Assembly: GCF_001428545.1 (NCBI RefSeq)
Contig: NZ_LMHZ01000002.1
Span: 1,662 to 65,661, forward strand
Direction of reading: 5' to 3'
DNA: 64,000 nucleotides
Origin: Noviherbaspirillum sp. Root189
GTDB taxonomy: Bacteria; Pseudomonadota; Gammaproteobacteria; Burkholderiales; Burkholderiaceae_D
Shown: positions 39,474 through 55,100 of the stretch, one piece after another
How the letters are laid out: each line of letters opens with the position of its first letter
Numbering within the stretch: position 1 is the first letter of the stretch
Notes under the pieces: generated by a model
What the model saw: the letters and a program-made list of their open reading frames with translations, nothing else
Told to the model about the DNA's origin: nothing
The model's database searches: none
Translations under genes and position numbers: made by a program

Positions 39474-39889
39474 CAGGTCGATAGCGGCCGCTTCGACGCC
39501 GGATAGCGGATGTTGACCCAGTTGACCTTTTCGCCGGAATCGAGAAGAACCGTTCCGAACGGTTCAGAATGCGGGAATTCGTTTCTCACGCGTTCGTAAG
39601 CTTCGCGTGCCGCATACGGGTTTTGCGCATACATTGCAAACGATCCGAAGACCCAAGACTGATACATTCCTCGCGGTAAGGGGCGCATGGCTGCTGATGA
39701 AAGGAGACTGATTGAATCTCGTATTCTGCGCTTTACAAGGACGTGGTTCGGTATGGTGGCGAACACAACAGGGATAAATTTTGGCCTTTCCTTGCGATAT
39801 ATCCGGAGGCCACGGATGTTTCCTGCCGATGAAACGGTGCGCTGGTAATCGTATCCAGGAATACCTCGTCGGCGAGATTGCCGGCGCAT
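39473..39889 (-). CDS. Hypothetical protein (possible remnant)
   Basis: The minus-strand frame of 138 codons ends at a TGA that shares bases with the repeat edge. The C-terminal half (MYQSWVFGSFAMYAQNPYAAREAYERVRNEFPHSEPFGTVLLDSGEKVNWVNIRYP) reads like a real protein, while the Arg-rich first half does not. The original gene may have been longer and truncated by the repeat, or the frame may be short from the ATG near 39684. No family recognised. Confidence 0.35.
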   Translation of the reverse strand: MRRQSRRRGIPGYDYQRTVSSAGNIRGLRIYRKERPKFIPVVFATIPNHVLVKRRIRDSISLLSSAAMRPLPRGMYQSWVFGSFAMYAQNPYAAREAYERVRNEFPHSEPFGTVLLDSGEKVNWVNIRYPASKRPLST

Positions 39890-39922
39890 AAAAAAACCCG
39901 CGAACCTTGCAGTACGCGGGTT
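39889..39922 (-). terminator. Rho-independent terminator of the M16C peptidase gene
   Basis: On the minus strand the stem AACCCGCG / CGCGGGTT (12-base loop) is followed by a run of seven T. It lies 128 bp downstream of the peptidase gene end at 40050, on the same strand. Confidence 0.75.
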
Positions 39923-40049
39923 AAATCCAATTCAAGAAGAGTTGGAGGAGACAAGGCAAGATTAATGCATCGCATCAAGTATGTCTGCTTTCCATTAGTG
40001 ATAGCCGACATTCATGGCACGGATATGTGCGGTTTGCCTGCTAGTTGCT

Positions 40050-43358: not shown

Positions 43359-45362
43359 TCAGGGCTCAAGGCGCCGGTCGGCCTCAGCATATCGTAGCCA
43401 GTCCGTACTTGCCGCCGCCAATTTTTTGGCCGATGCACTGTCGTCGATAACATCGGCACAATCCGCGAAAAAGGCCTTGAGCTGATCGTATAAGGTACCG
43501 GGTGCAATACCCTCTTTGGGATCAACAGTTTTTCGGTAAGGCGCGGACCAAGGAGCCTGTTTGCCAATATCGACGGCCTTCCCAAGCAGATGTGCACCCC
43601 TGTTATCAGGATGCAGCGGATCGGCATGCAAGCCGCGCGACTGAAGGTAAGCTTTCAGCAGGTCGATCAGGCTATTGTCAAGCGCGAGATATTTGATTCG
43701 CTGCTTAGGACCGCCTCGCACCTTTACACGCCATGTTACTGGTGCGTCCTTTCCCTGCTCTGATTCTGTAATGCATTGCAGGTCGTCGACGCGCAGGGTT
43801 ACCGCCTCTGAAAGGCGTAGCGACGTCGCTTCAATGAGCCGCAAGCCAAACTGGAGGCGGCGGTTTGCTGATGTGTCGGGCAGTGCGGAAAGCCGGTCGT
43901 GCAGAAATCGCCATTGATCACGACTCAACCGGCGTTGAATCTGTTGCGTTCGCGCTTCGCTGGCGGCCGAGGTAAGTCTGGCGCCACTCCAGGGGTTATG
44001 GTGCAAGTAGCCCGTATCGACCAGAAAACTGAACAGGCTTTTCAAAACTGTTGCAGCGTGTCGGCGCGCAGCGGCCGAAAGTGGGCCTTCGAAAGGGCGC
44101 CACAATGGGCTCCATTTTCCGCGGCCTCTTGGGCCACACCATACGTCGGTGGGCTTCGGATCACCTAGAAATTGCAGATAGGCGTCGCAGTCTTCCGCCA
44201 TCATGGAGGACAGGGCCATTTTCCTCTGAACGACAGCCCATAAAAGCAGGCGTTCGGCTTCCTTCAAGTAAGCCCGCTGGGTATGCGTGAGCGGCACGCT
44301 CTTGCCGTTCGACGTATCTGCAGCGTCTGCATGGTGAATCTCGGCAGCCCTGCCCTGGTGCTCCGCTTGCCTTGCAGCGCCTCCTTTTGCACCTATCCAA
44401 GCGTGTACCGCAGCGAGATCATGGTCCGCGGTAATCCTGCACTCTGCTTGCGGCAAGCGATTGTGGCCGTTTCGTCCGTCCAATGCAGCCGGGATGATCA
44501 ATTTTTCCAAAGGAACGATTGCGGTGGTCGGTGCGACAATCCCGGCCAGCTCCGTCGGCTGAAGTGCGTTGCGGCGTTTCAGAACATGCTCACCAATGGA
44601 CAATCCGAGTGTGGCTTCATGCGCGCGCAACCATGAAACGATACGTTCAGCCTTGCCTTGGCCGATCGCGCGAACCGACGCTGCCCAGCGATAGCCAATG
44701 CCATTCATTCTGTCGGCCAGCTGTCGTAAAGTGTCAATGCCGGATTTTTCAAGATGCGCCGCGAGATCTGGATTCAGCCAGGTTGCAATAGGGTCGTCAG
44801 GCTGAGGTGGTTGCACCGCCAGTTCTTCCAGCCAACGGATAGCGTCGAGTTGACGGACGATCAGCCGCCGGCGTCGCGACTGGTTCGGTTGAACATTACC
44901 GTAGCGACTTTGATAGTGTTCGATCTGTTCCGCCTGTGAAAAATCTTCCAGTCCGTGTTCAGCTGCAAAATCTTCCAGCGATGGAATTTTTACGGCTTTG
45001 TCATCAATGACGTTTGCGTCGATCTGGATCAGCCTGGCGATGCCATGACGTTCGCTACGGCGGGCAGCAGCGGCAAATTCGTCACGGATCCATTGAATGG
45101 TGCGGCGGACGTTACGGATATCGTCATGTTCGCCTTCCATGCGCAGGTAGCGATTCCAGCTATCGCGTGTGTCGAGTCCTTGAACGACTGCCCGCATGAA
45201 CGCGAAATGTCCCATGTGCAGCCGGCGGGCTCCTGGCAGTTGTGCCTGTGCTGCAGGCGAGAGTTTGCGCGGTGGTATGGCGCTGGTTTCGCTGAAGGGA
45301 TCGGGCAGGACAGGAGAGGATGGCATAGAAGCTGGCAATGGATGACTAAGTGCGGGACGCAT
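43359..45362 (-). pseudogene. Tyrosine recombinase lacking its catalytic C-terminus
   Basis: A 667-residue frame, start ATG at 45362. It resembles the large plasmid/chromid-associated phage-integrase proteins with an N-terminal DUF3701-type region (SRYGNVQPNQSRRRRLIVRQLDAIRWLEELA, then a helix-hairpin region), a SAM-like core-binding domain (RAYLKEAERLLLWAVVQRKMALSSM) and the start of the catalytic domain (Arg in EATSLRLSEAVTLRVDDL; KVRGG..K). The end is degenerate: where HxLRHTH is expected it reads TDWLRYAEADRRLEP and stops, so the second His/Arg and the Tyr nucleophile are gone. A MITE-like repeat lies just downstream. Strand exchange activity is not expected. Confidence 0.7.
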
Positions 45363-45747: not shown

Positions 45748-46017
45748 GGTGAGAACTTTTGGGAGCGCCGCACTCATGCACCTGGAATGGGACTCAGTAG
45801 TCAGGTGAGAACTTTTGGGTAGCATCCGGGAATGCAAGTCTTGCCTTTTGGGATCTTGACAAGCTTGTACGGTACAACTGCAAGCCCTTGATTCACATAT
45901 ATTTGTATTAATAGATATCGACTACCACACGTGGTCTTCGAGAAAAATCGAATAAATAAAAGCTTTTTAGTTGGGAGGACGTGGTCTGCCTTCTAGGAAA
46001 GGTGAGAGGTTTTGGGA
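45748..46017 (+). repeat. Iteron cluster 1 (three copies)
   Basis: 17-bp repeats of consensus GGTGAGAACTTTTGGGA at 45748-45764 (exact), 45804-45820 (last base differs) and 46001-46017 (GGTGAGAGGTTTTGGGA). They match the iterons on the other side of parAB at 49872-50045. Confidence 0.85.
45865..45877. promoter_or_regulatory. parS candidate 1
   Basis: TTGTACGGTACAA, a 13-bp palindrome with 6-bp arms. One of five in the 1.6 kb downstream of parB. Confidence 0.7.
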
Positions 46018-47133
46018 GCATGTTCCTTCGATCATTTTTTTCCATCACAGAGTATTGATGAATGGTGAACGGGTTGGATACAGGTTTAGATTTGCTTACG
46101 AAGCGCTTTGACGGGCACGTTGCGGCACTTTCTGCTCGGCGGCCTGTAATCTGCTCTGTCTCGTGTGAGTGGGTATGGAAAAGGTGATCTGCTCACGGAC
46201 TACATCACCGCTTCACATTTGAAGTGTCCGACGTGGATGCTGGAGCGGTTTCGGTCTGACTGGCCGATTGAATCCGAGGCGTATTGCCTGGGAAACAAGG
46301 CGCGGTGACGCGTCCTATCGGGGCTACGGCAAGGTGTCGCAACGCCGTGCCGCTGGCAATCCCGTCCGGCATCGACGGTACAGTCAGGCGGAAATTGCTC
46401 TAGGGTTTGGATCAAGTGCTTCGTCCAGGTGCTTCAACGCATCTCACTTTCGAACTACTTTGACTCCAGTACAAAAGCAAACCTGCCACAGTGATTACCG
46501 AAAGCAATTTAAGTCGTAGCGAACAAGCTCTAGCATGGCTTTATCCGCTACCGACTTCGGGCAGCTTGCAAGTACGCCTCTTCTAAGCGCGAGGCGGTCC
46601 TATCGGGTACAACGAAGAAAGATGCTTGAAGCGTGCAGCTTGTTGCCGGTGTTCTGGAATGGCGATCGCTTGGTATGCACGGCGGCACGGCGTATGAATG
46701 CCATGCAAGCGAGGATATTCACTTCCCGAAACACCAGCTATCCTTGCGTGCATGTGCCGTACGTACCCAAGCGATGAAACAACAGTATTGGAACTGCATT
46801 GAGCGGTATGTATTTGCGAACAGGCGCTTTGCCCTAAAAAGTCTATCCTTAAGATTTATTCGAGATTTGCTTCGCTTGCTTCTATGTTCGCTTGCCGTCT
46901 CCAGACGTTGCGTCTGCCGCTTTCATGCGTGCTTTTTAATCTGACGGCACTGAGGATCATGAAAGTTTAATTTTGATAGCTCTAGAGATTGTAGATATAC
47001 ATTGAAATGCGTATCAGAAATCCAGCCGTTTTGCCTGTTATGGTTTTGAAGTAATGCGTTTTTCCGGGAAGGAGTTCTGGTGCATCTTCTATGATCGGTG
47101 GAGATCAATGCACATTGCAGTTCCGAATGATTT

Positions 47134-47150
47134 GGTGAGAAGATTTGGGA
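47134..47150 (+). repeat. Isolated degenerate iteron
   Basis: GGTGAGAAGATTTGGGA, two mismatches from the iteron consensus, lying between parS candidates. Confidence 0.6.
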
Positions 47151-47175
47151 TGACTTTGCTTATCTTCCTGCGGAC

Positions 47176-47188
47176 TTGTACTGTACAA
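47176..47188. promoter_or_regulatory. parS candidate 2
   Basis: TTGTACTGTACAA, the same 6-bp arms with a different central base. Confidence 0.7.
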
Positions 47189-47292
47189 GGATCATCATGC
47201 CGCAATGGAATTAATGTCCACCATAGGACAACAGTCAGCTGGCGACTAAGTATTGGTGAACTATAGTATTTGCGCCGAAGACCTAGCCAGAG

Positions 47293-47305
47293 TTGTACAG
47301 TACAA
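47293..47305. promoter_or_regulatory. parS candidate 3
   Basis: TTGTACAGTACAA. It is followed 12 bp later by candidate 4, making a close pair. Confidence 0.75.
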
Positions 47306-47317
47306 GATCACGTAAAT

Positions 47318-47330
47318 TTGTACGGTACAA
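47318..47330. promoter_or_regulatory. parS candidate 4
   Basis: TTGTACGGTACAA, 25 bp centre-to-centre from candidate 3, so the two lie on nearby helical faces. Confidence 0.75.
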
Positions 47331-47418
47331 GTCGGCTCTGCTAGTCCCCGTACTGTCGTGAGAGGGAAATAACAACGCCTTTGTAATACACATCAGCTAA
47401 TCAAAATAACAGGCGAAA

Positions 47419-47447
47419 AAAAGGAGTTGTACGGTACAACTCCTTTT
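47419..47447. promoter_or_regulatory. parS candidate 5 inside a 29-bp perfect palindrome / parB terminator
   Basis: The 13-bp core TTGTACGGTACAA (47427-47439) is extended to arms of 14 bp (AAAAGGAGTTGTAC and its complement) around one central G. It sits 20 bp after the parB stop codon and has A/T runs on its flanks, so it could also fold in RNA as a transcription terminator. Confidence 0.75.
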
Positions 47448-47466
47448 GTCTCATCGAGCAAAGTAG

Positions 47467-48441
47467 TTAGGATGAAAACATCGTCCGGATATAGGCCCTC
47501 AGTGCTTCGGGCATATCTCCCTTGAGCACACCCTTCGAAAACTGCACCGTGATACGTCCACCCGCATTCGATATTCTCGCTACCAATTTTCCATCGACAA
47601 CAACTTCTTCAACATTTGGGCCATTCCCAACTTGCCCGCATAACAATTCAAAGACCTCTTTTGGCGCCTGTGCCATCTCCCGGTTCTCGGCAAGTTCTTT
47701 TGCGCGCGCGAGAACACCTTCCGGATCACTTTGAAGTGCATCGTTGAGTGTCTTCGCCCAGCGATACTGCAAATCCAGTGGAGACGGAAAAGCCCGCACG
47801 ACCGCTTCAGGCAAGTCGGCAAGACGAAGCGCTTTACTTAAATTGCCGGGATCGACTCCAACTTCCTTAGCTAACTGATCCTGTGAAGAAAATAGTTGTT
47901 CATTCAACGCACGGCGATACATGACACCTTGTTCCCAAGGAGACAAGTCAGCACGGGTGCGGTTTTCCCTATCCATCTCTTTGAACAGGTCCTGATCGCT
48001 AACCTCTTCCACCAGCGCTAGTACCGGCAACCCTAATTCCTGACATGCACGGTGACGCCGATGTCCAAATACAACCTCATACTGCTCAACTTGCCCCTTC
48101 ACAGGACGCACTTTGATCGGTTGAACATTTCCGCCAGCTTCCGCAATCTCAAGCTTTAGCGCCTTGAACCCGACGAGATCATAGCTGCGGACATCGCGGT
48201 TCGCCCATTTCGAAGGAATAATCTTGTCCGCATCAAGAAGCTTTACCGGCAGGACACCTTCAAATTCTTTTAGCCGAGCTTCAAGGACTGCCAGCTTCTC
48301 ATTGCTTTCCTTCATGAGAGAGTTCACCATCAACATTTGGCCAGGTCCGGTGCGCAACGGGGATGCACCCGTTCCACTGTCGGTTTTCCCCGGTACGAGA
48401 AGCCCCTCCGTCTTCTTCGCCAAACGATCCTTAATCGACAT
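47467..48441 (-). CDS. parB: ParB-family centromere-binding protein
   Basis: A 324-residue protein. The N-terminal CTPase-type domain has the GHRRHRAC motif (126-133), preceded by IKVRPVKGQVEQYEVVF, and the ENRTRADLSPWEQG box (159-172). The central HTH lies near 185-212 (SSQDQLAKEVGVDPGNLSKALRLADLP). The C-terminal dimerisation domain covers the last 60 residues. ParB binds parS and spreads on DNA as a CTP-dependent clamp; the likely sites are the TTGTACNGTACAA palindromes downstream. The ATG lies ten bases after the parA stop, so the two genes form one operon. Confidence 0.95.
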   Translation of the reverse strand: MSIKDRLAKKTEGLLVPGKTDSGTGASPLRTGPGQMLMVNSLMKESNEKLAVLEARLKEFEGVLPVKLLDADKIIPSKWANRDVRSYDLVGFKALKLEIAEAGGNVQPIKVRPVKGQVEQYEVVFGHRRHRACQELGLPVLALVEEVSDQDLFKEMDRENRTRADLSPWEQGVMYRRALNEQLFSSQDQLAKEVGVDPGNLSKALRLADLPEAVVRAFPSPLDLQYRWAKTLNDALQSDPEGVLARAKELAENREMAQAPKEVFELLCGQVGNGPNVEEVVVDGKLVARISNAGGRITVQFSKGVLKGDMPEALRAYIRTMFSS

Positions 48442-48451
48442 CTCCGCCTCC

Positions 48452-49633
48452 TTAAGCTAACTGGGACATCCAGGAATTCCGGATCGACACTTCTACAAGG
48501 TCGTTCACTCTGTCATAGGCGTCACGCGCCCGGCTGTAAGTTTTCATGCTGCCGTCGTAACGGCTAATGTCATACACCGTGCCAAACTCCGCGGAACTTG
48601 ATGATGTAACTGCGGTTTTCGGAATCTCCACGGGTAAAACCTTTTCAGCGTACGTAGCCGAAATCCACGATCGCACCACATCACTCGCAACATCCGACGA
48701 ATCGACACGCGCTAGTAACACATGGATAAAATCGAATGTCTTGCTAATTCCAGCACTTTCGACCAGGTTAGACGCCAGATCACTGAATAAACTCCAAAAC
48801 TGTGCCGAGCTCGCGAAGTCCAAGGCATTCGGTGGCAGCGGGACCATCAAACCGTCCGCCGCCATGAATGCATTGATCGTCACATATGACAACGAGGGGG
48901 GAGTATCGATAATGATAATGTCGTAATCATCCCGGACATCTTCGAGGCCAAGATTCAATACGTCCCAGAACTGAAACTCGGGGTCTTTCATTTGGCGTGA
49001 AGGCAGCACAAACTCTGCGGAAAACAAACTTGCTGATGCCGCGACCAGATCGATTCCATCCCAATACGTCGACTGAATAGAAGGTCGAATTGACGTTGTG
49101 TCACCATACACGAGCGGTGCGATCGTCTGCTCCTCCGACACTTCGGTATCCGGCATGATGCCGAACAGCGTAGTGAGCGAGCCCTGTGGATCCGCATCGA
49201 CAACTAAGACTTTATGCCCGCGCAAGCTCAACCCCTGTGCCATCACCATTGCGGTAGTTGTCTTGCTCACGCCACCTTTGAAGTTCCCCACTGCAAGCGT
49301 GATTGCGCGCGCGCCTTCGGGGCGTAAGTAGCCTGCTCTGTATTGTTGAACCCAAACACGAGCTTCCTTTAGCGAAAACTCCCGTCGCGAGCCTTTGTCA
49401 TTCAGCTGGCCGGCCGGCAGATCGCCTTTGCTGATACGATAAGCGACTTGTCCCTTGTCAATTCCGCACAGACTAGCCAGTTGCGTCAGCGAAAATACCG
49501 GCGGGTTCTTGTTGGCGTTTGGCGCCAGCATCCTGGATCGGATCTGATTCACCATCTGAGCCGCGCGCTCAGCTTGATCCACAATGTCGCTTATATGTAT
49601 CTTCTGCGGATTCGTAACCGTCGGTGCGATCAT
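48452..49633 (-). CDS. parA: ParA-family partition ATPase with N-terminal HTH
   Basis: A 393-residue type Ia ParA. A winged-helix-like DNA-binding domain (about 45-105: FSLTQLASLCGIDKGQVAYRISKGDLPAGQLNDKGSRREFSLKEARVWVQQYR) precedes the deviant Walker A KGGVSKTTT (119-127); the DADPQGSLT motif and the IIIDTPPSLSYVTINA Walker B region follow. Such long ParA proteins (P1 ParA, SopA type) repress their own operon by their N-terminal domain. The operator candidates are the ATTTTACG-type repeats just upstream. It works with ParB to segregate this replicon. Confidence 0.95.
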   Translation of the reverse strand: MIAPTVTNPQKIHISDIVDQAERAAQMVNQIRSRMLAPNANKNPPVFSLTQLASLCGIDKGQVAYRISKGDLPAGQLNDKGSRREFSLKEARVWVQQYRAGYLRPEGARAITLAVGNFKGGVSKTTTAMVMAQGLSLRGHKVLVVDADPQGSLTTLFGIMPDTEVSEEQTIAPLVYGDTTSIRPSIQSTYWDGIDLVAASASLFSAEFVLPSRQMKDPEFQFWDVLNLGLEDVRDDYDIIIIDTPPSLSYVTINAFMAADGLMVPLPPNALDFASSAQFWSLFSDLASNLVESAGISKTFDFIHVLLARVDSSDVASDVVRSWISATYAEKVLPVEIPKTAVTSSSSAEFGTVYDISRYDGSMKTYSRARDAYDRVNDLVEVSIRNSWMSQLA

Positions 49634-49664
49634 AGTTTTCCCGTAAGTTTCAAAGTAATTCAGT

Positions 49665-49740
49665 ATTTTACGTTATAGACCTATTTCTCGGTAACCACAA
49701 ATTTTGCGGAAATGCTTATTTTTTTCAGAATCCGTAAAAT
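49665..49740. promoter_or_regulatory. Candidate parA operator repeats
   Basis: Within 110 bp upstream of parA: ATTTTACG (49665-49672), ATTTTGCG (49701-49708) and the inverted CGTAAAAT (49733-49740). This is a spaced direct and inverted array, as expected for autorepression by a type Ia ParA. Assignment is by position and symmetry only. Confidence 0.45.
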
Positions 49741-49779
49741 TTCTCAGGTTTACATAGCGTTTTCGCCTTCCAGTCGGCA

Positions 49780-50080
49780 GACGCCGCTAAAAGAATATGA
49801 AAATCCTATAACTTCTATAACATCTAAAGGATGAGATTTTCTATTTATAATCAATAGCTTATAGAGGTTTAGGTGAGAACATTTGGTTGCGTTGGTGAGA
49901 GGTTTTGGGACAATAGGTGAAAGGCCTTGGGATGTAAGGTGAGTAGTTTTGGGAGCTGAGGTGAGTGGATATGGGCATGCCCCTGGAAACAGTCATCCAT
50001 CAGATATGTCGGTTATGGAAAATCTTTCGGTGAGAACTTTTGGGAGCAAAAGGAAGAGCGGACGCATACTGTTCTCACCT
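49780..50080. other. Replication origin: AT-rich segment plus iteron cluster 2
   Basis: An AT-rich run (49790-49870, possible unwinding element) is followed by six direct iterons: 49872-49888, 49894-49910, 49916-49932, 49938-49954, 49960-49976 and 50029-50045, the first five exactly 22 bp apart, so on the same helical face. The last is an exact GGTGAGAACTTTTGGGA. An inverted half-iteron (GTTCTCACCT, 50071-50080) follows, near the rep promoter and suitable for initiator autorepression. A classical DnaA box was not found by eye. Confidence 0.85.
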
Positions 50081-50176
50081 TGCGTCTTGAAACAATCTCA
50101 GAACTGAGTGAAGGTGAGTTTGCTTTTCATTTCGACTCACTATAGACTTCGGTAAACAGTACAACCAGTTAACATC

Positions 50177-51583
50177 ATGGCGGAGACCGCAAGCCCACCG
50201 AAGCGAAGTCGTAGCAGCAGCAAGCCTGCTGAGCATGATTATCTGCTGCGCAAACCCGTCAACACGCTCGCGATCGTCCCCAAGTCAGAAAAGATTACTG
50301 TTACCGCCCGCAAAATTTATAACGTCATGCTGCAGTACGCACAGCGGCAAGGCGTCGAGAAAGAGCGCTATCGCGCGCGGCTTTCCGAAATTGCGATCGG
50401 TATCGATTTCAATTCCAATAACACGGAAGTCATTAAGCAATACTTTCGGCAAATGGCCACCACCGGTGTCGAATGGCAATCACCGACCACAGGTGAAGGC
50501 GCGCGCTGGAGCATTTCGGCGCTGATCGCCCATGCCGATTTGATCCAGCGTGGTAACGAGTTGACCCTTGAGTGGAGTTACGCTCCCAACATCAAGCAAG
50601 AATTGCTCGACCCTCAGCGCTTCGCCAAAATGTCGCTGCAAGTACTGGCAGCGCTTAATACGATGGCATCGCTCGTGCTTTATGAGATCTGCTGCCGTTA
50701 TGCCGACAATCCTGGTGGATTGACCGCGCGGCAGGCTTGGGCCTGGTGGCGCCCCGTACTCACCGGAGCACCCGACAGTCCCGCGAGCGCCTATCAGGAA
50801 TACAAGATCTTCAATCGCGATGTCGTAAAGAAGGCGGTCAAGAAGGTCAATGAAGTCACCGACCTCGAAATCGAACTGATCGAACACAAGAGCGGACGTT
50901 CGGTACAGGACCTGCAGTTCAAGGTGCGCCGCAAGCATCCGCAACTCGGCCTTGCGGAGCGACCGATCGAGCCGGTCGATCTCAAGACCATTGGTAATAT
51001 CATCCGTGTCGGCATCCCTCAGGACCGTGCGGAAAAGCTGCTGTTGCGCTATGGCGCCAAGGCGGTCGACGAAGCCATTGCGGTGATGCACGAGCGCCAT
51101 CGACGTACCAACATGGAACCGGTCCGCACCCCCGAAAAATACCTGACCGCCATCCTGCAGTCCGGCCAGTTTGGTGCTGAAAAGCCGGCCGCTGCTCCAG
51201 TGCGTAAAACTTACGACACCAAGGCTGAGCGCATGAAGCTCATCGAGCAATTCATGGCGATGAAGCGAGCCCAACTCAACGAAATGTTCCAGGAAATGCC
51301 GGAGGCCGATCAGGCTGAATGGATCGCTCGTTTCGAGCGCGAAGCCTTGCCGGTATCCGGTGCCATCCGCAAGGCTTTCCAGGGTAAGGGCATTGCCAGC
51401 CAGATCGTGCGACCGGTGTTCCTGAAATTCCTTGGCAATGCCGTTTGGGAAGATGGATGGGAAAAGCCGTCCGATTATGAACTGACCGATCTTGCGATCC
51501 GGATGAAAAACGAACAGCAAGTGTTGGCAGACCAGCGTTATCCCAACAAGGGTCGAGTCGATCTGGGGGGCATCAAGGGCTGA
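50177..51583 (+). CDS. repB: Rep_3/RepB-type replication initiator protein
   Basis: A 468-residue protein. The N-terminal half (about 22-260) has the twin winged-helix initiator fold: LLRKPVNTLAIVPKSEKITVTARKIYNVMLQYAQRQ, then LVLYEICCRYADNPGG and the basic helix region. The C-terminal 200 residues are longer than in typical Rep_3 proteins (about 300 residues) and resemble extensions in Burkholderiales megaplasmid initiators. It is divergent from parA across the iterons that it should bind. A weak promoter (TTTGCT at 50119 and TATAGA at 50141, 16-bp spacer) lies upstream, and there is no clear ribosome binding site. Confidence 0.9.
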   Translation: MAETASPPKRSRSSSKPAEHDYLLRKPVNTLAIVPKSEKITVTARKIYNVMLQYAQRQGVEKERYRARLSEIAIGIDFNSNNTEVIKQYFRQMATTGVEWQSPTTGEGARWSISALIAHADLIQRGNELTLEWSYAPNIKQELLDPQRFAKMSLQVLAALNTMASLVLYEICCRYADNPGGLTARQAWAWWRPVLTGAPDSPASAYQEYKIFNRDVVKKAVKKVNEVTDLEIELIEHKSGRSVQDLQFKVRRKHPQLGLAERPIEPVDLKTIGNIIRVGIPQDRAEKLLLRYGAKAVDEAIAVMHERHRRTNMEPVRTPEKYLTAILQSGQFGAEKPAAAPVRKTYDTKAERMKLIEQFMAMKRAQLNEMFQEMPEADQAEWIARFEREALPVSGAIRKAFQGKGIASQIVRPVFLKFLGNAVWEDGWEKPSDYELTDLAIRMKNEQQVLADQRYPNKGRVDLGGIKG

Positions 51584-51619
51584 TGTCTTGCTTCACCGCT
51601 GCTTCATGGTAGGATTCGT

Positions 51620-51706
51620 TCCACGCTAGGGGTCCCGGAGCTAACTGTCTTCGGGTGAGAAAAACCCTCCGTACCTGATCTGGATAATGCCAGCGTAGGG
51701 AAGCGC
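51620..51706 (+). ncRNA. TPP riboswitch (THI element)
   Basis: The conserved strings of the thiamin pyrophosphate riboswitch are present in order: GGGGTCCCGGAG, GGTGAGAAAAACCCTCCG, GTACCTGATCTGGATAATGC and CAGCGTAGGGAAGCG; the CTGATCTGGATAATGCCAGCG block is nearly invariant in this class. It lies 62 bp before the receptor start, a normal distance for translational or terminator-type control in proteobacteria. Confidence 0.95.
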
Positions 51707-51767
51707 AAAGACACATTACTTTGTTTGCTCCGTCGCTGGCTCCGTATTGACTGCGACCGAACCAAAC

Positions 51768-53927
51768 ATGTCCACACCGACCGCCCGCTTCCCCCTTCTT
51801 GTTCTTTCGGCTGTGCAAGCCCTGGCTGTTCCGCTCGCCGCGCGCGCCCAGCAATCCGATACCGTGCTGCCGCCCGTCTCGGTGTCGGCACCGCGTGTTG
51901 CCGGCGACAACGCCGCTGTATCGGCGATTGGCAGCTTTGGCCAGCTACCGTTGCAAGAAACGCCTGCGTCCATTACCGTCATCACCAATGAGCAGATGCA
52001 TGAACGCGGAATTCGCCAGACCACCGACATTACCCGGCTCGATGCCAGCGTCAACGAATCCTACAATGCGGTCGGGTACGCAGAACAATTCTCCATCCGG
52101 GGCTTCGCCCTCGACAACACGGCAAGCTATCGCAAGGATGGACTTGAAATCTCCGCCGACGCATCGGTAGCGCTGGAAAACAAGGAGCGCATCGAAATAC
52201 TGAAAGGCCTTGCCGGCCTGCAGGCAGGAATCGCCACGCCGGGCGGCATTCTTAATTATGTTACCAAGCGTCCGACCAACGATCCTCTGCGTTCGGTGAT
52301 CGTCGAAGCGCGCGAGCGTGGCACGCTGTATGGCGCAGTTGACCTTGGAGGCCGCTCCGACGACAAGCGCTTTGGCTATCGCATCAACGCCGCCGCCGAA
52401 AAGCTCCGCTCCTATGTGCGCGGCGCCGATGGCGAACGCGAATTTGTCTCGGGCGCATTCGACTGGAGACTGACGCCGCAGGCTTTGCTGCAACTTGACA
52501 TCGATTACCAGCACAAGTCGCAGCTCACTGCGCCCGGTTTCCAGTTAATCAACGGAACCGATTTGCCGACCGGCGTATCGGCGCGCACCATGCTCAACAA
52601 CCAGCCGTGGAGCAGGCCGGTGAAAACCGACAGCGCGAACGTCGGTTTGCGTTTTGAGTACCAACTCAATCCGGACTGGACAACCTCTGTCGCGGTCAAT
52701 CGCAATACCTTGCGGCGCGACGACTTTGCGGCCTTTCCTTTTGGATGCGCCAGTGCCGGGATCTTCTCGGGGTTTTGTGCAAACGGCGACTATGACGTCT
52801 ACGATTATCAAAGCGAAAATGAAAGAAAATCCCTGCTTGCCACGCAGGCCATGATCCAGGGAAATTTCGTGGCCGGCACCATGCGGCATGAACTGGCCGC
52901 TGGCGTTTCCGGGCTGCGTCGTCGAGAAAAATTCGGCGACTGCGTCTACGGTAGCGTTGATTGCCTGGGAAGTGCACCGAATGGGACCAGTAATCTCTAT
53001 GCGCCCGTTGCGGTGCCTGCTTCGGCAATATCAACCGGGCCAGTCTTGCTGAGGCGTAGCGACGATGAGCGCTCCGTATTTGTGCGCGACGTCATGTCAC
53101 TCAACGACGCACTGAAATTGCATGCGGGCGCGCGTTACGTCCGCATCGATCGCAATCAGTTTGACGAAAACGGCAACGCAAGAAGTGCCTTCGACAAGGG
53201 TTTTTTGCTTCCCAATGTCGCGCTGGTATATAGCCCGAATAAGACGCTCAGTATCTACGGATCCTTCGCTGAAGGTCTCGAGCATGGCGGGATTCCCGCA
53301 AACTTTACTAACAACGCTAACCAGGCGCTTGATCCGGCTAAATCCTATCAGGTTGAATTTGGTACAAAAGCGCGTCTTGTCGATGGTTGGAATTTGACCG
53401 CGGCTGTTTTCCGGATCCGGAAACCGCTTGAATTCCTGAACGCGTCCAATACCTACGTGCGCCAGGGCGAAGCCGAGCATCAGGGCATCGAACTTGGCCT
53501 GCAAGGCCAGGCGACACGCAACCTCGCCCTGGGTGCAAGCATGACCGCCCTGCACAGTCGTCAGGAAAACACCGGAGACCCGACACTGGACGGCAAACGC
53601 GTCACCAATGTCCCTAAGCTCAAGTCGGTTGTCTATGCCGATTACACTATCTCCAACCTCTCCGGACTGTCCCTGAACGGTAGCTGGCAATACGCGTCGA
53701 ACAAGGCCTTTAGTCCGGACAATAGCGTAACGGTCCCTGGCTATCACACGTTCAACGTCGGCGCACGCTACCTCACGCGGGTAGCGGGAATGTCCACGAC
53801 GATCCGCTTCGGCATCGATAACGTGACGGACAGGTTCTACTGGCGTGACGTTACCCAGTCACTCGGCGGTTATCTCTTTCCTGGTGCGCCCCGCACCTTC
53901 AGGCTGTCAGCCCAGTTCGATTTCTAG
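51768..53927 (+). CDS. TonB-dependent outer membrane receptor (TPP-regulated)
   Basis: A 719-residue protein from the ATG at 51768 (signal: TPTARFPLLVLSAVQALAVPLAARAQQ). A plug domain (about 45-180: LPLQETPASITVITNEQM, FSIRGF, LAGLQAGIATPGGILNYVTKRPTN) precedes a 22-strand barrel ending in the aromatic FRLSAQFDF. The general look is of the siderophore-receptor type. The TPP riboswitch upstream indicates thiamin-repressed expression, and similar TPP-controlled receptors are known in proteobacteria, so thiamin or a precursor is the probable substrate. It is convergent with the kinase gene, only 12 bp away. Confidence 0.92.
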   Translation: MSTPTARFPLLVLSAVQALAVPLAARAQQSDTVLPPVSVSAPRVAGDNAAVSAIGSFGQLPLQETPASITVITNEQMHERGIRQTTDITRLDASVNESYNAVGYAEQFSIRGFALDNTASYRKDGLEISADASVALENKERIEILKGLAGLQAGIATPGGILNYVTKRPTNDPLRSVIVEARERGTLYGAVDLGGRSDDKRFGYRINAAAEKLRSYVRGADGEREFVSGAFDWRLTPQALLQLDIDYQHKSQLTAPGFQLINGTDLPTGVSARTMLNNQPWSRPVKTDSANVGLRFEYQLNPDWTTSVAVNRNTLRRDDFAAFPFGCASAGIFSGFCANGDYDVYDYQSENERKSLLATQAMIQGNFVAGTMRHELAAGVSGLRRREKFGDCVYGSVDCLGSAPNGTSNLYAPVAVPASAISTGPVLLRRSDDERSVFVRDVMSLNDALKLHAGARYVRIDRNQFDENGNARSAFDKGFLLPNVALVYSPNKTLSIYGSFAEGLEHGGIPANFTNNANQALDPAKSYQVEFGTKARLVDGWNLTAAVFRIRKPLEFLNASNTYVRQGEAEHQGIELGLQGQATRNLALGASMTALHSRQENTGDPTLDGKRVTNVPKLKSVVYADYTISNLSGLSLNGSWQYASNKAFSPDNSVTVPGYHTFNVGARYLTRVAGMSTTIRFGIDNVTDRFYWRDVTQSLGGYLFPGAPRTFRLSAQFDF

Positions 53928-53939
53928 ATCGAAATCCGC

Positions 53940-54467
53940 TCAAGCGTCTTGAAGGGGATGCAGTAGTCGTGTCACCTGCTGCATCCTTTCCTGGTCCGTA
54001 CCCTGCACCAGGGTGTAAGGGGTTTTGAGTTGCGCCAGCGCTTCCAGCAGTTTTTCGTGCAGGTGCTGGCGCACCTCTTCTGATTCCCGCTGCAAACCAT
54101 CCGCAACCCAAGGGGTATCCGGCGCCGTCACCAGGGTCAGGTGATAGCGTCGGTCACGCGCCATCATCGCAAGTTGAGGATCGACACGTCCCCAATAAAA
54201 GCAACTGTAGAGTGCGGTCATCAAGGGCGTCGTATCGCAAAACAGAAACGTGCCGGCGAACCCGGCCGCCACGTCTTCGCGCTCTATTTGTGTACGGGCA
54301 ATCACGATCTGCTCTTCCTCGCGCGGCGTGCGGCCTTGCAACTCGACGAATTCACGTAAATATTCCGGCACCCAAATGCTACAGTAATGCTGCGCAAGCG
54401 CCGCTGCGAGCGTGGACTTGCCGGTGGACTCGGCGCCAAGAATGGCAATGCGAAGGGGCGGCTTCAT
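53940..54467 (-). CDS. NadR-like P-loop kinase
   Basis: A 175-residue protein. The P-loop GAESTGKST lies at residues 11-19, followed by HYCSIWVPEYLREFVELQGR, FLFCDTTPLMTALYSCFYWG and VTAPDTPWVADGLQR, as in the ribosylnicotinamide kinase domain of NadR (AAA_28). There is no NMN adenylyltransferase domain. It follows the PnuC-family transporter by 33 bp on the same strand. Given the TPP-controlled receptor next door, it could phosphorylate thiamin rather than nicotinamide riboside; that choice is an inference. Confidence 0.82.
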   Translation of the reverse strand: MKPPLRIAILGAESTGKSTLAAALAQHYCSIWVPEYLREFVELQGRTPREEEQIVIARTQIEREDVAAGFAGTFLFCDTTPLMTALYSCFYWGRVDPQLAMMARDRRYHLTLVTAPDTPWVADGLQRESEEVRQHLHEKLLEALAQLKTPYTLVQGTDQERMQQVTRLLHPLQDA

Positions 54468-54500
54468 GGATTGCAGTGCGTATCCATCGTCTCTATCGCG

Positions 54501-55100
54501 TCACACTACTGCCACATCGGGCCGGCGGTTCCAGGCACGCAGGCCGACGCAGGCAAGCACGACAAACAAGGCATACAAGACGGCCGTCAGCATCAGGTCC
54601 TTGTACACATACAAACCGACATAGAGCAGATCGACAACAATCCACACATGCCAGTTCTCGACCTTTTTTCGCGCAAGCAGCAACTGCCCGACCAGACTGC
54701 CCGCAGTGAGAAAGCCATCGATATACGGGACGTCGGTATCCGTGTAGGACTTGAGAAATAGCGAGAGCAGCACGAACCCAACGGCCCATGCCGCGAGCGC
54801 CCACCAGCGACCCGCCACGGTCAGACGCGAGACCCGCAAGCCAGTGCCGGTTCCCCGGCCTCGCAGCCATTGATACCAGCCCCAGGCGGAAGTCGCGATG
54901 AACACCCATTGCAAGCCCATGTCGCCATACAAGCGAGCGCCATAGAACACGACGGCATAGGTCGCCGACGACGCGATGGCGAACAGCCATGCCCAGTGAA
55001 CCAGGCGGATGTCGAGGACTACGGTCAACATGGCGAGCAGGAAGGACACCAGTTCCAGCGGCGTTGTGGAAAAAACGGGCAACACTATGGGATCGTTCAT
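54501..55100 (-). CDS. pnuC: PnuC-family vitamin transporter (possibly PnuT, thiamin)
   Basis: A 199-residue inner-membrane protein with about seven membrane segments: LELVSFLLAMLTVVLDIRLVHWAWLFAIASSATYAVVFYGA, QWVFIATSAWGWYQWLRG (the WGWYQW family motif), WWALAAWAVGFVLLSLFL and later ones. PnuC proteins import nicotinamide riboside by facilitated diffusion with metabolic trapping by a kinase; the PnuT subfamily moves thiamin and is usually under a TPP riboswitch. The neighbouring riboswitch lies on the other strand, and no riboswitch was found upstream of this gene, so the substrate is uncertain. Confidence 0.88.
   Translation of the reverse strand: MNDPIVLPVFSTTPLELVSFLLAMLTVVLDIRLVHWAWLFAIASSATYAVVFYGARLYGDMGLQWVFIATSAWGWYQWLRGRGTGTGLRVSRLTVAGRWWALAAWAVGFVLLSLFLKSYTDTDVPYIDGFLTAGSLVGQLLLARKKVENWHVWIVVDLLYVGLYVYKDLMLTAVLYALFVVLACVGLRAWNRRPDVAVV

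Follow-up and report, generated by a model that had tools for sequence, protein, structure and literature searches.

A probable origin and centromere of a Noviherbaspirillum secondary chromosome, and a covarying residue and base in its ParB family

Does a plasmid-like rep gene lying beside parA and parB in the genome of a soil bacterium mark the origin and the centromere of a second chromosome, and by what would such a centromere be told apart from those of related partition systems? Both questions are raised by a locus of Noviherbaspirillum sp. Root189 contained in the stretch of 64,000 nucleotides analyzed here and termed the window (bases 1662-65661 of contig C2, 146,371 bp, in a draft genome of 6.15 Mb and 90 contigs). 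From left to right, the locus consists of a recombinase gene on the minus strand, a stretch of 2 kb holding four iterons and five palindromes, then parB and parA on the minus strand, a gap of 543 bp with six iterons, and rep on the plus strand. Judging from sequence comparisons, we estimate at roughly 85% the probability that this locus is the origin together with the centromere (the cognate parS sites) of a Noviherbaspirillum secondary chromosome.

Replicon and origin

The original prediction had taken the locus for the replication and partition region of a secondary replicon, a claim that is well supported by its genes and by their location on a contig separate from dnaA. Rep (468 amino acids, 50177-51583, plus strand) is a Rep_3 family initiator containing the winged-helix domains Rep3_N and Rep3_C (PF01051, 37.8 bits, and PF21205, 43.1 bits, both over their cut-offs). 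ParA (393 amino acids, 48452-49633, minus strand) is a Walker ATPase matching PF13614 over its cut-off, and ParB (324 amino acids, 47467-48441, minus strand) carries the N-terminal and helix-turn-helix (HTH) domains of type I ParABS systems (PF02195 and TIGR00180 over cut-off). Profile matches also liken the two proteins to RepA and RepB, TIGR03453 (244 bits for ParA) and TIGR03454 (ParB) both remaining below their own cut-offs. About 210 residues of Rep lie outside its two Pfam domains, and phmmer found no solved relative.

Relatives of Rep at least 75% identical occur in 10 of the 14 other genomes of the genus, or 11 of 15 with the window's own; two of the remaining four have no Rep match and two have a relative of 29-31% identity only. 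Counted by locus, identity to the window's Rep is 75-91% for seven Noviherbaspirillum loci and 68-74% for three metagenome bins, and every one of the relatives found in 403 plasmid records is less than 60% identical. Location of the locus on the dnaA replicon had been named as a refutation of the original prediction; dnaA lies on another contig in all 11 genus genomes with the locus, most of these assemblies being drafts. In three assemblies of 3-4 contigs, the contigs that carry the locus measure 1,692,174, 1,034,233 and 727,115 bp.

The proposed check by GC skew was carried out on the near-closed assembly G010, whose locus contig, C2, was covered by 40 samples of 20 kb (800 of 1,692 kb). The cumulative skew reaches its minimum at the 465-485 kb sample, near the locus (424-429 kb) but not at it; the 508-kb sample is strongly positive and the cumulative maximum falls at the 1.18-Mb sample. 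The dnaA contig G010:C1, sampled 20 times as a rough control, gave a shallow dip that is lowest in the 165-kb sample, with dnaA located at 215 kb. On a further locus contig, G006:C2, a local skew minimum coincides with the sample holding the locus. G010:C2 also carries two 16S-23S ribosomal RNA (rRNA) operons, which on a circular replicon would be directed away from the locus. The replicon combines features of a chromid: plasmid-type replication and partition genes and, in the relative G010 only, core genes (the two operons) and a G+C content within about 1% of that of the main chromosome (57.1% for C2 versus 57.8% for C1, from samples of 800 and 400 kb). The skew, the rRNA operons and the G+C content of G010 agree with a second chromosome, with rRNA operons in this one relative; a limited literature search found no paper on a Noviherbaspirillum chromid.

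Iterons of one consensus had been predicted on both sides of parAB, and both blocks were confirmed. The window contains eight matches to GGTGAGAACTTTTGGGA with at most three mismatches, where shuffled sequences give 0.09: four in the block distal to parB (45748, 45804, 46001 and 47134) and four in the proximal block of the parA-rep gap (49872, 49894, 49938 and 50029). The five proximal iterons said to be spaced by 22 bp (49872, 49894, 49916, 49938 and 49960; together 49872-49975) do have that exact period, but those at 49916 and 49960 are degenerate, weaker copies, and a sixth iteron, identical to the consensus, follows at 50029-50045. All ten iterons of the window lie on the plus strand. Across the 15 genus genomes, 59 of 62 matches to the iteron pattern fall at the locus, and the reversed pattern yields five matches. 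The three matches elsewhere (one each in G003, G008 and G012) lend no support to a licensing site of the crtS kind on the main chromosome.

As in other Rep_3 origins, the directly repeated iterons adjoin an AT-rich stretch upstream of rep; the most AT-rich 50 bp of the gap (49807-49856, 80% AT) form a candidate unwinding element. From what is known of the family, Rep would bind the 22-bp-phased proximal iterons and then open the neighboring AT-rich stretch. An inverted half-iteron with a CTCACC core (50070-50079, minus strand), situated between the iterons and rep, is a candidate Rep operator, and CTCACC is present in the gap of 6 of the 11 genus loci. DnaA boxes are common in Rep_3 origins without defining them. 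One-mismatch 9-mers of the DnaA box occur in the gap of 7 of the 11 loci; a DnaA-dependent origin was rejected, exact boxes being absent from the gap.

Several observations weigh against a secondary-chromosome origin. The window's own replicon is a draft contig of 146 kb. In G010, the skew switches sign not at the locus but 56-80 kb to its right, 47% of the replicon having been sampled; that of G002:C3 is noisy (10 samples), and that within the window is opposite to the expected sign, so that the window alone would not have revealed a second chromosome. The exact DnaA box TTWTNCACA is missing from the parA-rep gap of all 11 genus loci. Finally, the proximity of distal iterons to palindromes is what chance would give: 15 of 34 lie within 80 bp, and 2775 of 5000 random placements do as well. 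A composite iteron-parS unit was rejected for that reason.

Other Rep genes were encountered in the genus. The genome of the window holds a second Rep of the family, 29% identical and with one internal stop (G000:C46:20048-21289), and G010:C3 (1.45 Mb) carries a similar distant Rep, a hint that the genus has another type of replicon. One of the genus genomes that lack the replicon has a distant Rep (L016, G014:C17) on a 5.1-Mb contig that also holds dnaA, perhaps an integrated or fused replicon. G002 has a second, partial Rep copy downstream of rep (L039 6254-6823).

The iterons beyond parB

The distal iterons of the window (45748-45764, 45804-45820, 46001-46017 and 47134-47150, with zero, one, two and two mismatches to the consensus) were followed through 13 genus-type loci, namely those of the window, of 10 genus genomes and of two metagenome bins, using the pattern GGTGA-N7-TGGG. 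They are present in 12 of the 13 (one bin, L036, has none), at 76 to 2,484 bp beyond the parB match, and all 34 share the strand of the proximal set. Across the genus, the layout is conserved as rep, iterons, parA, parB, parS, distal iterons. A separate blind scan of 89 loci found a repeat family upstream in 87 and at least two copies of it within 2.5 kb beyond parB in 14, as against 0.15 loci with shuffled consensuses. These 14 comprise 11 of the 13 genus-type loci and 3 of 74 others (L149, L234 and L239), the latter being a rough figure as the repeat families found blindly outside the genus may partly be coding sequence. Being recurrent in genus-type loci and rare in others, the distal block is a maintained feature of the lineage.

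What might it do? When an initiator has a second set of sites in cis, initiation is usually lowered, by handcuffing or titration. The distal iterons, placed amid the parS sites, are likely Rep sites that would restrain initiation in either of these ways, through Rep binding or pairing, and ParB spreading over them would possibly relieve the restraint. We regard a restraining role as an evenly balanced proposal, ahead of two others that both seem unlikely. One is that the distal iterons belong to the origin proper, which would then span both blocks and require looping across parAB for initiation. The shared consensus and strand of the two blocks in 12 of the 13 genus-type loci would suit such an origin; however, the regular 22-bp phasing beside an AT-rich stretch is confined to the proximal block, the distal spacing differs among species, and of the 74 non-genus loci with a repeat family upstream, 71 show at most one copy in the 2.5 kb past parB. 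The other, equally improbable, is that they are functionless relics of a duplication or of a captured older origin, as their irregular spacing, the turnover of their positions and the presence of a dispersed repeat in the distal block could indicate. Yet, for all the shifts in position, motif and orientation persist (34 of 34 on one strand), and the motif has been kept while the ParBs diverged to 55-80% identity. The dispersed repeat itself, about 165 bp long (46237-46406), occurs at six places in the window's own genome and was also matched in at least five of the sampled stretches of G010.

The locus can be described as a variant of the known Rep_3/ParABS second-chromosome origin, its new trait being a second iteron set among the centromeres. 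This conserved set of likely initiator sites is a natural place to seek a coupling of replication and segregation.

Centromere sites and the ParB recognition helix

Five palindromes had been predicted to be confined to the parB-distal block, and five exact copies of TTGTACNGTACAA are indeed found there: parS 5 (TTGTACGGTACAA, 45865-45877), parS 4 (47176-47188), parS 3 (47293-47305), parS 2 (47318-47330) and parS 1 (47427-47439), numbered from parB outward. Four of them start 28-279 bp past the parB stop and one 1,590 bp past it. No further site with up to two mismatches is present in the window (0.92 expected), and the whole 6.15-Mb genome has six exact copies, five of them at the locus. In the 15 genomes, 36 of 38 palindromes lie at the locus, none occurs in the four genomes without it, and the reversed pattern matches twice. 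Palindromes clustered near parAB and specific to the replicon are typical of type I ParABS systems. Their prediction as parS is strongly supported by this distribution and by the covariation of their half-site bases with the ParB helix described below, and they are very probably the parS sites of this replicon. ParB would read TTGTAC-N-GTACAA, the predicted site being TTGTACSGTACAA, and once loaded there would let ParA separate the sister replicons. The two off-locus palindromes (G000:C5 and G009:C21) are probably not additional parS sites, because they have 25 identical bases in common and overlap a CTGT-N8-ACAG box, which we take to resemble a LexA site.

The first parS, 26-38 bp or less past the parB stop, sits in 9 of the 13 genus-type loci within a terminator-like hairpin that has 12-16-bp arms and a T-rich tail; that of the window (47405-47466, minus strand) folds with -18.8 kcal/mol and a z-score of -4.29. 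One site may therefore serve as both centromere and terminator of parAB.

Palindromes with a single central base recur near related parB genes. A blind search around 37 ParB homologues (31-61% identical) returned a repeated odd-centered palindrome at 27 loci and a repeated even one at none, whereas first-order simulations predict 0.15 and 0.25. Ninety further loci gave 67 odd and four even (0.9 and 1.0 expected), so that 94 of the 127 loci, among which some plasmids are counted twice, have a repeated odd palindrome and four a repeated even one. The 140 loci in all include 105 with a repeated arm, 25 with a single site picked by its AC-S-GT center and 10 with none; chosen with the center fixed, the single sites are uninformative about it. 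The final two bases are AC in 87 of the 105 repeated arms and CC in 16, and a single ParB family presents 23 different repeated half-site arms.

Bases of these arms covary with residues of the predicted recognition helix of ParB (198-208), which in the window carries N200 and K203 and was modeled by AlphaFold2 with block-mean confidence scores (pLDDT) of 91 and 93 over residues 191-210. In AC arms, the base next to AC (N3) is T with Asn at residue 200 in 46 loci (one gap); G with Asp in 17 and Tyr in one; A with Leu in 23, Gln in 10, Ala in nine, Met in two and Val in one; and C with Asn in two. The 16 CC arms go with Trp and base A. A scan of 319 alignment columns was run on the 105 loci with repeated arms, with sequence weights set at 70% identity (an effective number of 69). 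Residue 200 accounts for the whole of the weighted N3 entropy (fraction 1.00), the next column for 0.57. For N4, residues 197 and 203 have the best normalized scores (fractions 0.82 and 0.66); the N-terminal columns 44 and 40 reach 0.68, slightly above residue 203, with lower normalized scores. Residues 202 and 199 have the best normalized mutual information for N5. The top columns for all three bases thus lie in the predicted helix or next to its start. Lys203 accompanies G in 36 of 38 repeated loci of the first set and in 61 of 67 later ones.

A rule for residue 200 (Asn with T, Asp with G, Leu or Gln with A, and Trp, noted apart, with A) was written after the first loci, where it fits 36 of 38 repeated ones. 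It covers 59 of the 67 later repeated-arm loci and fits all 59 (47 of 47 without Trp). It fits all 55 loci covered out of 63 when ParBs at least 90% identical to an earlier one are removed, and all 51 covered out of the 59 whose ParB is less than 70% identical to every earlier one. Ala and Met (and Val, from single sites) were added with base A after the later loci had been seen. The exceptions are L153 (Tyr, TAAGAC), L184 (His, ATACAT) and one plasmid present twice (L146 and L219; Asn, TTGCAC, single copy). N200 and K203 of the window, found with T and G, agree with the rule; as the covariation has it, N200 would match the T adjoining the central AC, and K203 the G beside that T.

Could common descent, rather than recognition, have tied residue 200 to its base? 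We consider this improbable, somewhat more so than either alternative for the distal iterons. The sequences are related, and pairs on supported, independent branches, three to four per test, are too few for significance: those agreeing are four of four for T, three of four for G and three of three for A, with a mean of 2.4 of three for Lys203. Pairs of systems within one genome have the same arm in 2 of 45 cases where 5.1 are expected, again without significance (490 of 5000 shuffles are as low), and one of these two pairs lies on one contig (G485:C2). Among 21 class-level loci of distant ParBs, three have genuine repeated odd palindromes and three repeated even ones, apparent repeats in two loci having been dropped as runs of N; at the three odd loci, residue 200 is S, D and R with N3 A, C and A, so that the rule is wrong in one and not applicable in two. 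Its extension to distant ParBs was rejected on this ground, and no such code is claimed for SopB since the equivalent of residue 200 aligns as Ile. Descent, on the other hand, sits poorly with a base N3 that has undergone 13 or more changes on a tree from which the helix was left out, with best columns for N3, N4 and N5 that fall in the helix or at its start, with the 51 of 51 fit below 70% ParB identity, and with the closest pair differing in N3 (61% identical), in which L176 (Acidovorax, TTTTAC) has Asn with T and L149 (Cupriavidus, TTTGAC) Asp with G.

We therefore favor recognition, and think it fairly probable that plasmid and chromid ParBs of this family follow a lock-and-key code: on odd palindromes with mostly an AC-N-GT center, residue 200 would read the next base (Asn for T, Asp for G, non-polar residues or Gln for A) and residue 203 the following one (Lys for G). 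Centromere identity and replicon coexistence would then be predictable from the protein and changeable by single substitutions. That the palindromes are instead operators of another regulator or transcription terminators is very unlikely, for although 9 of the 13 genus-type loci have the first one in a terminator-like hairpin and a LexA-like box overlaps both off-locus copies, the other copies have arms of 6-12 bp, the sites are restricted to genomes with this ParB, and site bases in the wider family covary with its helix residues.

How sister partition systems avoid cross-talk is a standing question in multi-replicon bacteria, and the matching of residue and base may account for the way in which a cell distinguishes its related DNA molecules. 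Because the relation of one residue to one base predicted the base in later loci, the question can be tested by point swaps in vitro. The ParB-parS relation, as deduced from covariation, appears to us a more interesting lead than the locus itself. Searches of mostly open-access literature (palindrome strings, ParB-parS specificity, covariation) retrieved no published description of this parS family or code.

Neighboring genes and known systems

The distal block is bordered by a DUF3701 tyrosine-recombinase-like gene (667 amino acids, 43359-45362, minus strand; PF12482, with weak XerC/D matches), and 9 of the 12 other genus-type loci have a homologue of it (32-65% identical) beyond parB. Of 23 annotated plasmid loci whose ParB is homologous, 16 likewise have an annotated tyrosine-recombinase or phage-integrase gene no more than about 3 kb past parB. 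The gene is possibly a backbone gene for multimer resolution. Directly 3' of rep, a thiamine pyrophosphate riboswitch precedes genes for a TonB-dependent receptor, a NadR-like kinase and a PnuC-type transporter (51618-55100), likely a thiamine-uptake cluster; in a comparison of genes, receptor, kinase and transporter also adjoined rep in L038, L040 and L041. Positions 39888-39953 match the Rfam family Betaproteobacteria toxic small RNA.

In the F and P1 plasmids, iterons are split into an origin set and a control set (incC and incA) beside parABS. The control set there lies between the rep and par genes, whereas the distal set of the window lies beyond parB, among the parS sites.

On chromosome II of Vibrio cholerae, inhibitory initiator sites close to the centromere can be covered by ParB2 (PMC3688505), though that replicon uses RctB and 39-mers and not Rep_3 iterons. 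KorB of RK2 has the ParB fold and, as here, an odd-centered palindromic operator: its OB oligonucleotide contains TTTAGC-G-GCTAAA (PMC11790492, PMC5016525), and the same 13-mer occurs at locus L163, whose ParB is 38% identical to that of the window. For KorB, specificity is reported to reside outside the HTH, whereas the covariation seen here points, indirectly, to the recognition helix. In the specificity switch between ParB and Noc, the site chosen depends on a small number of residues at the DNA interface (PMC7383237); by our reading of the alignment, three of the four residues (173, 179 and 184 of Caulobacter ParB, the fourth being 201) align with 198, 204 and 209 of the window, not with 200 or 203, and the sites are even 16-mers, unlike those of the window. 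A paper on Polaromonas plasmids gives putative parS sites, including for the plasmid of L181 (PMC6015842), so single sites of this kind may already be in print.

The nearest counterparts are found in the Burkholderiales. The Bsr systems are likewise ParABS systems of secondary replicons, with the same order and palindromic, replicon-specific parS; their sites are 16-bp even palindromes with a central CG (PMC5450999), and those of the window 13-bp odd palindromes with a single central base. Chromosomes c2 and c3 of Burkholderia cenocepacia group a plasmid-like rep, iterons of 19-21 bp, parAB and parS on a secondary chromosome (PMC4948915), the arrangement proposed for the window; Rep is 36% identical. 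The c2-type record CP091013 differs from the window in its repeats, which form an even palindrome with the arm GTTTATGC, and in the opposite strand of its one iteron far from the array; its iterons and those of the window have in common the core GGTGAG-N4-TTYGGG.

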